From an uncultured Pleomorphomonas sp. (GTDB lineage Bacteria; Pseudomonadota; Alphaproteobacteria; Rhizobiales; Pleomorphomonadaceae), in assembly GCA_937868725.1 (NCBI GenBank), contig CALMMQ010000083.1:1-44589 (forward strand): 44,589 bases of DNA, in the 5' to 3' direction. This document shows positions 41,814 through 44,570 of this stretch, in pieces. The notes beneath the pieces are model-generated. The model made no database searches, had not been told where the DNA came from, and saw only the letters and a list, made by a program, of their open reading frames with translations. Position 1 is the stretch's first letter. Every line of letters starts with the position of its first letter. The translations under genes were made by a program, and so were the position numbers.

Positions 41814-41843
41814 TTGACGCCGTCGTTCGGCCATCGTTATATA
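41814..41843 (+). promoter_or_regulatory. Sigma-70 promoter of the ABC importer operon
   Basis: TTGACG (41814-41819) and TATATA (41838-41843), 18 bp apart, form a near-consensus promoter. The -10 element lies entirely inside the left half of the ModE-like palindrome. The leader to the ATG is about 125 bases. Confidence 0.75.
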
Positions 41844-41860
41844 ACAAAAGCCATAACGAT
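41833..41860. promoter_or_regulatory. ModE-like operator (molybdate-responsive)
   Basis: The left half is ATCGTTATATA (41833-41843), the spacer 6 bp, and the right half GCCATAACGAT (41850-41860). The outer 8 bases of each half are perfect inverted repeats (ATCGTTAT/ATAACGAT). The E. coli ModE consensus, as I recall it, is ATCGNTATATA-N6-TATATAACGAT, so the left half matches fully and the right half at 9 of 11 positions, with the correct spacing. Position over the -10 element suggests repression by molybdate-bound ModE. Confidence 0.72.
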
Positions 41861-41974
41861 CGGCGTGCGGGGGCAGACGTCGCGACCGGACTGGTGGTTT
41901 CAGCCGTCGGGAAGCGCTGTCGATCCGGCGCTGGCGGCTGGGCTTGTCATCATCCTCTCAACGGGAATGTTCCG

Positions 41975-42970
41975 ATGTCTGTCCGTCTTACCCGCCGCGG
42001 TCTGTTGCAGAGCGGTGCGGCGCTTGCCGCTGCCGGTGTCATGCCGGCCGCCTTTGCCACCCCCATGCCCGGCCTTGAAATTCTCGGTGCCCCCAACGGC
42101 GCCACCATCGTCCTGGCCGATCTCATCGCCTCCGGCGGTCTCGACAAGGTGGCGCCCGGGGCCAGCTTCCGTCTCTGGCACACCACCGACGAACTGCGCG
42201 CCGCCATCGTCGCCGGTTCGAGCCTGCTCTATTCGACGCCGAGCCACGTGCCGGCCAACCTCGTCAATCGCGGCATGCCGCTCAAGCTGGCGGCCATCAT
42301 CGGCATGGGCCACCTGTCGGTGGTCACGGCCGACGACAGCGTCAGGTCGTTCCACGATCTGGCCGGCAAGACGGTGTTGGGCTTCTTCCGTCACGACATG
42401 CCCGACCTGGTGTTCCGCGCCGTCGCCCGCATGGAGGGCATGGACCCCGACAAGGACATGACGCTGCAGTACGTGCAGACGCCGATGGAAGCCGGCCAGC
42501 TGCTGGCCGCCGGCAAGGTCGATACGGCCGTGCTGTCCGAGCCGCCGGCCACCGCCGCCATCATGATGGCCGGCAAGAACGGCCGTGCCGTGCGCCGCGC
42601 CTTCGATCTCAAGGACGTCTGGGGTATCCACAAGGGCAAGGCGCGCATCCCCATGGTTGCCGTCGCGCTGCATGAAAAGCTGATCGACACGGCGCCCGAG
42701 GTGATCGCCGCGCTGGGATCTGGCCTTGCCGCCGCCCGCGCCCACGTCTTCGCCGATCCCGCCGCCGCGGCGAGGCTGGCCGAGAAGACCATGGAGATGA
42801 AGCCCATGGTGTTCGAGAAGGCGCTCGACCATTTCAACATCGAAGTCGTCCCGGCGCGCGCCGTCCGGGATGAACTGGTGGCGTTCTATCAGACGCTGCT
42901 CGACCTGGAGCCGGAAGCCATCGGCGGCAAGCTGCCGCCCGACGACTTCTATCTGGATCTTCCCGGTTGA
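41975..42970 (+). CDS. ABC importer substrate-binding protein, NitT/TauT type, ModE-linked
   Basis: A 331-residue periplasmic binding protein. A Tat-like signal starts the protein (RLTRRGLLQSGAALAAAGVM), with twin arginines and cleavage near AFA; no lipobox. The mature part resembles the nitrate/sulfonate/taurine (NMT1/SsuA-like) group: GAPNGATIVLADLIASGGL, AIVAGSSLLYSTPSHVPANL, SFHDLAGKTVLGF and ELVAFYQTLL. ModA-type molybdate-binding signatures were not recognised. ATG at 41975 has GGGA upstream; the frame is open further 5' but without similarity. It is followed by the permease with overlap (TTGA). The operator upstream suggests control by molybdenum. Substrate unknown. Confidence 0.88.
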   Translation: MSVRLTRRGLLQSGAALAAAGVMPAAFATPMPGLEILGAPNGATIVLADLIASGGLDKVAPGASFRLWHTTDELRAAIVAGSSLLYSTPSHVPANLVNRGMPLKLAAIIGMGHLSVVTADDSVRSFHDLAGKTVLGFFRHDMPDLVFRAVARMEGMDPDKDMTLQYVQTPMEAGQLLAAGKVDTAVLSEPPATAAIMMAGKNGRAVRRAFDLKDVWGIHKGKARIPMVAVALHEKLIDTAPEVIAALGSGLAAARAHVFADPAAAARLAEKTMEMKPMVFEKALDHFNIEVVPARAVRDELVAFYQTLLDLEPEAIGGKLPPDDFYLDLPG

Positions 42971-43788
42971 GCCGGCGCAACGGACGGGCCGGAGACTGGT
43001 TCTACGGCGGGTTCGGCCTACTATTGTTGGCGGGAGGCTGGGCCTGGCTCAATCGGGTCTCCGGTCCGTTCGTGTTGCCCTCGCTGGCCGACACGGCGAC
43101 CGCCTTCACGGCGATCTGCCGCTCGGGCGTGGCTGGGCGTGAACTCGTCATCACGCTGGTGCATGCCGTCGGCGGCGCGGCACTTGGTGCCCTGTCGGGC
43201 TTCGTGCTCGGGGTGGCCGGCGGCCTGAAACCGCCCTTCGGCGCCACGCTGCGGCCGGTGGCCACTGCCATCCTCGGCATTCCACCCGTCGCCTGGGTGG
43301 TGCTGGCGCTGTTGTGGTTCGGACCGGGGCTGACGACGCCGTTGTTCACGGTCACGGTGACGACGGCGCCGATCCTGTTCGCCTCGGCTCTCGCCGGCGT
43401 CGAGGCGCGCGACGCCGGCCTCGTCGAGCTTGCCGCCGTCTTCGGCTTGCGGCGCGACACCCGCTTCTGGCGCATGATGCTGCCGGAACTGGCCGTGCAC
43501 GTGGCGCCGGCCCTCTCCACCACCTTCGCTCTGGCCTGGAAGGTGGCGTTGACGGCCGAGCTGCTCGGCGACGGTACCGGCATCGGCGGCGCCTTCGCCA
43601 CGGCGCGCGCCCATCTCGACCTGCCCGAGGCCATGGCCTGGATCTGGCTGGTGGTGCTGTTCCTGCTGGTCACCGACGGCGTGCTGCTCGGACCGTTGCG
43701 GCGCTGGGTGCGCGGCCATCGGCCGCCGCGCGCCGTCGCCGAGGGGCCAAGCTGCGTCGGCGTCGGCTATGTCAGGGAGCGGACCTGA
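42967..43788 (+). CDS. ABC importer permease, NitT/TauT type
   Basis: A 273-residue inner-membrane permease of the BPD_transp_1 family. Several membrane helices are visible (FGLLLLAGGWAWL, LGALSGFVLGVAGG, ILGIPPVAWVVLALLWFG, WIWLVVLFLLVTDGVLLG). The EAA-like loop VELAAVFGLRRDTRFWRMML contacts the ATPase. It starts with TTG overlapping the stop of the binding protein gene, and its stop overlaps the ATPase ATG (TGATG), so the three proteins are made together. Confidence 0.92.
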   Translation: MSRRNGRAGDWFYGGFGLLLLAGGWAWLNRVSGPFVLPSLADTATAFTAICRSGVAGRELVITLVHAVGGAALGALSGFVLGVAGGLKPPFGATLRPVATAILGIPPVAWVVLALLWFGPGLTTPLFTVTVTTAPILFASALAGVEARDAGLVELAAVFGLRRDTRFWRMMLPELAVHVAPALSTTFALAWKVALTAELLGDGTGIGGAFATARAHLDLPEAMAWIWLVVLFLLVTDGVLLGPLRRWVRGHRPPRAVAEGPSCVGVGYVRERT

Positions 43789-44507
43789 TGCTGACCCTCA
43801 CCGATATCGCCTGGTCGGCGGCCGGCCGCCCCGTCATCGCCGGCCTCGATCTCGTCGTCGCCCCGGCCGAACTGGTGGTGATGCTCGGCGCTTCCGGCGT
43901 CGGCAAGACGACGGTGCTGCGCCTCGCCGCCGGCTTGACGCGGCCGGAACGCGGCGAGGTGAACAACGGCTTCCGCCGCACCTCGATGGTGTTCCAGGAA
44001 CCGCGCCTGATGCCCTGGGCCAGCGCCCGCGACAACGTGGCGCTGGTGCTCGACCGCCTCGACCGGGCCACGGCCCGGGCGCTCGCCGACAGCTGGCTGT
44101 CGCGGCTCGGCTTCACCGCCGCCGACGGCGACAAACGGCCGGGCGCGCTGTCGGGCGGCATGCAGGCGCGCGTCGCCATCGCCCGCGCCTTCGCCGTCAC
44201 TCCCGATCTGGTGCTGATGGACGAACCTTTCGCCGCCCTCGACTTCGGCCTGCGCCGCGACCTGCAGCGTCAGGTGCGCCGTCTCGTTCGGGAGACCGGC
44301 GTGGCGGCGCTGTTCGTCACCCACGATCTCACCGAAGCGGTCAGTCTTGCCGACCGCATCGTCGTGCTGGCCGGCGCGCCGGCCCGTCTGGCCGCCGACC
44401 TCGCCGGACTGCCACCCAACAGCCTTGCCGTCGTCTGGGAACAGGCGGCGGCGCTGGCCCACCGGCCGGAACTGGCGTCGGTGGTCGCCGGTCTCGACGC
44501 GGGCTGA
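43788..44507 (+). CDS. ABC importer ATP-binding protein
   Basis: A 239-residue ABC ATPase, short for the NitT/SsuB group. Walker A is GASGVGKTT, the Q loop is in VFQEPRLMPWASARDNV, the signature is LSGGMQARVAIARAF, Walker B is LVLMDEPFAALDF, and the switch His is in FVTHDLTEAVSLADRI. LMPW and the EAVSLADR segment are typical of nitrate/sulfonate/taurine importers. ModC-type C-terminal TOBE/MOP domain is missing, which argues against a conventional molybdate ModC. It is the last gene of the operon. Confidence 0.95.
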   Translation: MLTLTDIAWSAAGRPVIAGLDLVVAPAELVVMLGASGVGKTTVLRLAAGLTRPERGEVNNGFRRTSMVFQEPRLMPWASARDNVALVLDRLDRATARALADSWLSRLGFTAADGDKRPGALSGGMQARVAIARAFAVTPDLVLMDEPFAALDFGLRRDLQRQVRRLVRETGVAALFVTHDLTEAVSLADRIVVLAGAPARLAADLAGLPPNSLAVVWEQAAALAHRPELASVVAGLDAG

Positions 44508-44539
44508 TTGGCGCTCCGTTGCGCTTTCCAGTCATGGAA

Positions 44540-44570
44540 AAGGGCCGCCGGAGATCATCCGGCGGCCCTT
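44540..44570 (+). terminator. Rho-independent terminator of the ABC importer operon
   Basis: AAGGGCCGCCGG (44540-44551) and CCGGCGGCCCTT (44559-44570) form a perfect 12-bp stem with a 7-base loop, followed by GATTTGTTG, about 32 bp after the ATPase stop. The A/T ends of the stem also allow function on the other strand. Confidence 0.85.

Follow-up and report, generated by a model that had tools for sequence, protein, structure and literature searches.

Contig CALMMQ010000083.1 of an uncultured Pleomorphomonas sp. (assembly GCA_937868725.1), whose 44,589 nucleotides make up the whole window analyzed here, carries near its end an operon for an ATP-binding cassette (ABC) importer of the NitT/TauT class, and the promoter of this operon is overlapped by an operator of the type bound by the molybdate-responsive regulator ModE. 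The host is a nitrogen-fixing soil bacterium. Judging from the operator and from the gene neighborhoods of relatives, we consider it fairly likely that the operon encodes an importer of molybdate or another molybdenum species, and it is probably an uptake system of an undescribed kind for this metal. Control of the operon by ModE is predicted with something close to certainty, and ModE would be expected to bind at the box and repress transcription there.

The first-pass annotation of this DNA had called a 28-bp ModE-type site with 11-6-11 spacing lying over the −10 element, and this description stands: the box agrees at 18 of 22 positions with the ModE consensus ATCGCTATATANNNNNNTATATAACGAT given in the consulted part of PMC2700814, and a −10-like TTATAT lies inside its left half-site. 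Scored with a matrix built from 12 modA-linked boxes from other genomes of the genus, none of them from the importer, the site reaches 34.2 bits, compared with 4.5 bits for the runner-up in the 44.6-kb window, and when the 400 bp upstream were shuffled, 0 of 1,000 versions scored as high. The pattern ATCGTTAT-N12-ATAACGAT, which was picked after sight of the importer site, matched 3 places in the 4.13-Mb genome when up to 3 mismatches were allowed (1 for the reversed control), and the importer site was the only one with 0 mismatches. The second site, at 29.9 bits, stands before mop-modD, and the same contig carries nifK. The third (C84:27607, with 3 mismatches) is surrounded by genes whose appearance led us to regard it as a chance match.

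The promoter architecture is fixed within the genus. Orthologs with 73% to 79% identity occur in 6 of 20 family genomes searched (own included), and in all 6 the geometry of TTGACG, 17-nt spacer, TTATAT, and box is identical. The boxes score 34.2, 25.8, 21.3, 40.2, 35.6, and 40.2 bits, with 0 to 1 of 1,000 shuffles reaching these values, and among three subclade representatives the half-sites are 73% to 86% identical versus 27% to 43% for the next 60 bases downstream. A generic sigma-70 scan, which requires the second hexamer to have A as its second base, called 0 promoters here; the promoter therefore rests on its conservation in the 6 orthologs. By the modA-box matrix, the Mo-box is absent from all 13 genus paralogs of the importer (6.1 bits or less). 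These paralog loci (L010 to L022) have an upstream block of their own, highly conserved in the genus and weaker in this genome, about 150 to 300 bp before the binding-protein start around CTCTTTTTCGATTTAGATGCTTC and a GTTACG..TTATCGCGTA stretch. It contains no Mo-box and is possibly the site of another regulator.

The first-pass annotation had made its reading depend on the presence of modE, and the genome encodes a protein (L001) with a helix-turn-helix (HTH) plus TOBE architecture that scores 101.3 bits against TIGR00637, over the cut-off of 98.5, together with a single-HTH ModE-type protein (L002) at 73.3 bits, under that cut-off. It had also proposed a genome-wide scan to see whether the site ranks beside modABC, and the importer box in fact has the highest score among the Mo-boxes found in the genome. 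The box before the genome's own modA (L052/L067, contig C62) has a 7-base spacer rather than 6, unlike seven other aligned genomes, and because of the extra base it escapes fixed-spacing scans; ModE control of this modABC may be altered. A further Mo-box, at 23.8 bits, lies between a moeA-like gene and a gene for a TupB-like permease (L115, contig C47, 2196-4467), which is over the cut-off of NF038017 and under that of the TupB equivalog (158.9 versus 320).

Relatives place the importer in molybdenum gene neighborhoods. A sample of the order comprising 397 genomes gave 12 orthologs of at least 441 bits, followed by a gap down to 285 bits, and ModE-type HTH matches were found in all 12 ortholog genomes (3 over the strict cut-off). 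A scan of named species gave 9 loci, of which five repeated genus genomes, one, Siculibacillus lacustris, is G276 of the order sample, and three were new (Azorhizobium doebereinerae, Rhodopseudomonas faecalis, and R. palustris JSC-3b), for a total of 15 distinct loci. In a tree of 45 rows, the binding proteins of these 15 loci form one branch with 100/99 support, with long branches meeting between this clade and the paralogs. Of the 15 loci, 11 have either a Mo-box, placed at the operon or at its gene line, or a modE gene no more than about 1.5 kb upstream. The box is directly upstream in 8, namely the six Pleomorphomonas, G320 (13.1 bits, 3 of 1,000 shuffles; a divergent mop-modD is also there), and G192 (20.7 bits, 0 of 1,000). 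The expectation that the palindrome would be conserved in orthologous operons was thus borne out in the genus, G320, and G192; it failed in Siculibacillus, G045, and G291, where the modA-box matrix found no box just upstream of the importer, and in the two Rhodopseudomonas the box is weak.

Two of these gene lines are particularly explicit. In Siculibacillus the order is modE, importer, a ModA-type gene, modD, modC, modB, modA, a TOBE-only mop, a second mop-like open reading frame (ORF), and fdhD. Its ModE has an HTH at 87.0 bits and a Mop domain over cut-off, the ModA-type gene scores 277.5 over a cut-off of 264, and modA, modB, modC, modD, and fdhD are each over a curated cut-off. The line in Azorhizobium runs DUF2325, DUF2478, a short ModE (TIGR00637 86.5 bits, under 98.5), a full ModE (HTH 90.8 bits, Mop domain over cut-off), a YqeB-like gene (143.8 bits, below its cut-off of 220), the importer, and a ModA-type gene (NF002917, 291.1 over 264) that overlaps the end of the ATPase gene; Mo-boxes of 25.0, 13.2, and 15.3 bits precede these genes or lie between them. 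G045 has modE and a YqeB-like gene upstream of the importer. A ModE, Mop, or ModD match within about 1.5 kb occurs at 4 of 15 clade loci versus 0 of 29 paralog loci (p = 0.01). Including YqeB-like and DUF2478 matches changes the count to 5 of 15 versus 1 of 29 (p = 0.013), a comparison that is partly circular since the YqeB-like, ModA-type, and DUF2478 queries were first noticed in clade loci. Since some clade members are found near modE, mop, modD, and a gene for a molybdate-binding protein, we argue that the cargo would be molybdenum rather than a substitute for missing molybdenum. The first-pass annotation had listed several possible substrates; the neighborhoods in relatives appear to favor molybdenum itself as the cargo.

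A total of 28 among the 397 genomes have a ModA-type gene over the NF002917 cut-off. Three of them belong to the 12 importer genomes, and in one, G276, the gene adjoins the importer. In four other loci (L056 to L059, from G010, G012, G016, and G018), a ModA-type gene scoring 179 to 204 bits with NF002917, below 264, lies by eye beside a FecCD-type permease and an ATPase; this set is perhaps a MolBC-A-like importer. DUF2478 was seen with the ModE genes of Azorhizobium (L031, 2807-3403) and again opposite mop-modD on the nif contig of the Pleomorphomonas genome itself (L066, 6863-7510), and it is a candidate molybdenum-linked protein. Paralogs of the importer were considered as molybdenum importers and rejected, since all 29 paralog loci examined lack a ModE, Mop, ModD, ModA, or ModB match within about 1.5 kb, with one DUF2478 match among them. 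The same applies to the paralog L017 (about 38% identity), which shares contig C19 of this genome with nifK and mop-modD and was rejected as a second such importer given the 13 of 13 genus paralogs without a Mo-box.

The importer also goes with nitrogenase. Of the 397 genomes, 65 have a nifH match over cut-off; they comprise 11 of the 12 that carry the importer and 54 of the 385 others (p = 1e-8). Outside the genus the figures are 5 of 6 importer genomes versus 46 of 377 others (p = 2e-4), with both counts inflated by kinship, six of the 12 importer genomes being one genus. The cut-off admits some nitrogenase-like homologs near 400 bits, and the Pleomorphomonas genome has one at 399. This genome additionally encodes an Fe-only nitrogenase, anfHDGK by curated scores (L111, contig C17, 3265-9856), with a gene for a GAF/sigma-54 activator beside it, and the best Mo-box site in the 16-kb stretch around anf has only 4.1 bits. 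A tie between the importer and alternative nitrogenase was rejected, as AnfG/VnfG was found in 7 of 347 genomes, a listing that covers six ortholog genomes, with presence in this genome (G000), G012, and G320 and absence in G014, G015, and G017. The NifH homolog of 399 bits belongs to a nitrogenase-like cluster (L110, contig C115, 99-9418) with a NifD-like protein under the cut-offs and a radical SAM protein. Genes for a NitT-type permease and binding protein, judged by eye, adjoin this cluster, which we take to resemble nitrogenase-like systems acting on sulfur compounds.

The importer itself belongs to the NitT/TauT class, as the first-pass annotation had recognized, with an NMT1-fold binding protein, a BPD_transp_1 permease, and a short ATPase (Pfam matches to NMT1, NMT1_2, BPD_transp_1, and ABC_tran). 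No TOBE domain was found in the ATPase with Pfam, and its match to modC_ABC is 121.9 bits, under the cut-off of 285.05. Among the binding-protein matches in Pfam and NCBIfam there is no modA model. The binding protein and permease reach no NCBIfam cut-off, and the ATPase is below the cut-offs of all NCBIfam families among the matches listed (25 of 186). Curated cut-offs for SsuABC, TauABC, and NrtABC were missed as well (SsuC 52.2 versus 347; ntrB 43.1 versus 209.05; SsuA_fam 35.8 versus 163.5). Consecutive genes of the importer overlap at their ends, and the permease start codon is TTG; in relatives L024 and L025 this codon is ATG. The N-terminal motif TRRGLL of the binding protein is presumably a signal like those of the twin-arginine translocation (Tat) pathway. 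Coordinates are collected in Table 1.

Table 1. Features of the importer operon and its promoter (positions in the window).
Feature	Position	Strand	Details
−35 hexamer TTGACG	41814..41819	+	same hexamer 19 nt before the box start in 6/6 genus orthologs
ModE-type operator (Mo-box), palindrome	41833..41860	.	28 bp, 11-6-11; ATCGTTATATA-ACAAAA-GCCATAACGAT
−10-like TTATAT inside left half-site	41837..41842	+	17-nt spacer; kept in 6/6 genus orthologs
Binding protein, NMT1/NitT-TauT class, periplasmic	41975..42970	+	PF13379 and PF09084 over cut-off
Permease, NitT/TauT class	42967..43788	+	PF00528; 4-base overlap with binding-protein gene
ABC ATPase, 239 aa, without TOBE domain	43788..44507	+	PF00005 86 bits; weak overlapping AAA_21 match
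Terminator-like hairpin, operon end	44540..44570	+	13-pair stem, 10 G-C

Upstream of the importer, Pfam matches identify cbiD and, on the opposite strand, a CobB/CbiA-type gene; in five relatives from the genus, neither gene was seen next to the importer. In three relatives (L024, L025, and L027), moaA lies about 5 kb upstream (318.5 versus 284.05 bits in L024; the other two by eye).

An AlphaFold2 model of the binding protein, made with an input alignment of 10 sequences, has a predicted local distance difference test (pLDDT) score of 86.1. The nearest folds by Foldseek are 3hn0, PqqT with pyrroloquinoline quinone (PQQ), SsuA, and Thi5, at about 14% to 21% identity, and 3hn0 was the sole match in a PDB sequence search. 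Four residues, N41, H91, H113, and S115, are present in all 15 distinct clade sequences, where 29 of 30 distinct paralogs, all but the second copy of G320, have Tyr91 and Tyr115. By the fold topology of the NMT1 class, these residues would sit in loops lining the cleft, and the change from Tyr to His and Ser suits an oxyanion or a metal-bearing ligand without amounting to proof.

Taken together, these features suggest how the system could work. When molybdate is plentiful, molybdenum-bound ModE would occupy the palindrome over the −10 element and block RNA polymerase; when molybdate is scarce, ModE would leave and the operon would be expressed. The NMT1-type protein, exported through Tat, would bind its cargo, either molybdate or a different anion or chelate that contains molybdenum, and hand it over to the permease and ATPase, so that the importer would supplement the supply from ModABC to Mo-nitrogenase and other molybdenum enzymes. 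Free molybdate is our tentative first choice for the cargo, at somewhat short of even odds, and an organic molybdenum compound takes the smaller part of the same overall estimate.

Several observations weigh against a molybdenum importer. Four of the 15 clade loci lack a firm molybdenum context: R. faecalis and R. palustris JSC-3b share the same weak box of 8.9 bits (11 and 23 of 1,000 shuffles), G330 has a YqeB-like gene and then the contig end, and G291 has a best site of 1.4 bits with no molybdenum context. The ModA-type gene and the importer are on different contigs in G045 and G330, and no ModA-type gene was recognized 3′ of the importer in those genus relatives with the downstream region in view. 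The link to nitrogenase is subject not only to kinship: the sole nifH match of G291 over cut-off, at 401 bits, is in the range of the 399-bit homolog noted above (a separate contig-end nifH piece has 340 bits), and G192 has the importer with no nifH found over cut-off. The Pleomorphomonas genome is already equipped with modABC and with a gene for a TupB-like permease. ModE regulons can hold genes unrelated to molybdenum import, as predicted for Geobacter sulfurreducens in the consulted part of PMC2700814.

In another reading, which we consider unlikely, the importer carries an organic cofactor, a sulfonate, or another anion needed only at molybdenum shortage and ModE serves as the scarcity signal. 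Organic compounds are the ligands of this importer class and of its closest folds: among solved structures with a named ligand, the nearest are PqqT with PQQ, SsuA with sulfonates, and Thi5 with pyridoxal phosphate (PLP). In Rhodobacter capsulatus, the ModE-like MopA and MopB repress a non-uptake gene, anfA, according to the sections of PMC6925177 consulted. However, the Siculibacillus and Azorhizobium gene lines include modE and a gene for a molybdate-binding protein that closes the line, and alternative nitrogenase, given the few genomes with AnfG/VnfG, is not the link.

Returning to a molybdenum cargo, a chelate or organic compound such as siderophore-bound molybdenum, in place of free molybdate, is one form of it to which we give slightly less credence again. 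NMT1-fold proteins such as PqqT and Thi5 take bulky ligands, and the separate ModA-type binding protein beside the importer in two species looks as if two forms of cargo were served. Yet visual inspection of the ORFs listed around the loci revealed neither a TonB receptor nor a gene for molybdophore synthesis, for which no dedicated search was made.

That the operon imports tungstate for tungsten enzymes, shut off by a ModE that can sense tungstate too, appears improbable. Tungstate is often carried by molybdate-type systems as well, and the TupB-like permease gene of this genome, with its Mo-box, stands together with a moeA-like gene; on the other hand, that same gene means that a TupB-like component is already present, while the clade has modABC and a ModA-type gene as neighbors and is associated with nifH. 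Finally, a chance or non-functional palindrome is very hard to credit: the stricter ModE pattern CGNTATAT-N6-ATATANCG finds no match genome-wide, the importer site included, which it misses because the right half of the site is GCCATAACGAT, but in all 6 orthologs of the genus the box stays at one place relative to the promoter amid diverged flanks, and 0 to 1 of 1,000 shuffles reach its score.

Nitrogen fixation can be limited by molybdenum supply. If the molybdenum importer proposed here is real, it would be a new importer class that general annotation would label as nitrate, sulfonate, or taurine transport, and it would give diazotrophs a dedicated extra route of molybdenum scavenging. We see an even chance that ModABC, WtpABC, TupABC, and MolBC-A are joined here by another structural class of molybdenum ABC importer in bacteria: one of the NitT/TauT class, with binding loops marked by Asn/His/His/Ser, serving molybdenum scavenging in mostly diazotrophic Hyphomicrobiales, and encoded in some species in one gene line with ModE and a second, ModA-type binding protein. 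A search of the open-licence PMC literature found no NitT/TauT molybdenum importer, which does not imply absence from print. The first-pass annotation had judged the class unusual for molybdenum uptake. In a 2018 survey of about 5,900 organisms, as far as the consulted portion goes, the reported prokaryotic molybdenum and tungsten importers are ModABC, WtpABC, and TupABC alone, 278 molybdenum-using bacteria lack a known transporter, and NitT and TauT do not appear (PMC6147048). A survey of R. palustris binding proteins, in the part consulted, describes a vanadate binder, RPA1385, and ties nothing to the present importer family (PMC3223731).

Among known systems, the importer resembles ModABC in the Mo-box at its promoter and in the clade loci that stand beside modE, modD, mop, and a ModA-type gene, but it differs in its NMT1-class binding protein and TOBE-less ATPase, and its genome has a separate modABC. 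MolBC-A is a Type II importer of another class. In the consulted part of PMC4031551, it is described as a further ABC route for molybdate beside others. A parallel in regulation is MorABC of R. capsulatus, a second ABC importer under ModE-type repression in a diazotroph, whose deletion left Mo-nitrogenase activity unaffected as assayed and whose role is unknown according to the consulted sections of PMC6925177. By the same source, MorA and MorC are ModA- and ModC-like, whereas the importer here is of the NitT/TauT class, so that orthology was rejected and MorABC is a parallel rather than a match. TupABC and WtpABC are likewise ABC importers, of group-6 oxyanions, but the present importer reaches none of their cut-offs and has a binding protein of a different class. 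The systems of SsuA, TauA, NrtA, PqqT, and Thi5 type share its NMT1 fold and its permease and ATPase class; from these it is set apart by low identity, by the equivalog cut-offs it does not reach, and by its ModE operator and molybdenum gene neighbors.

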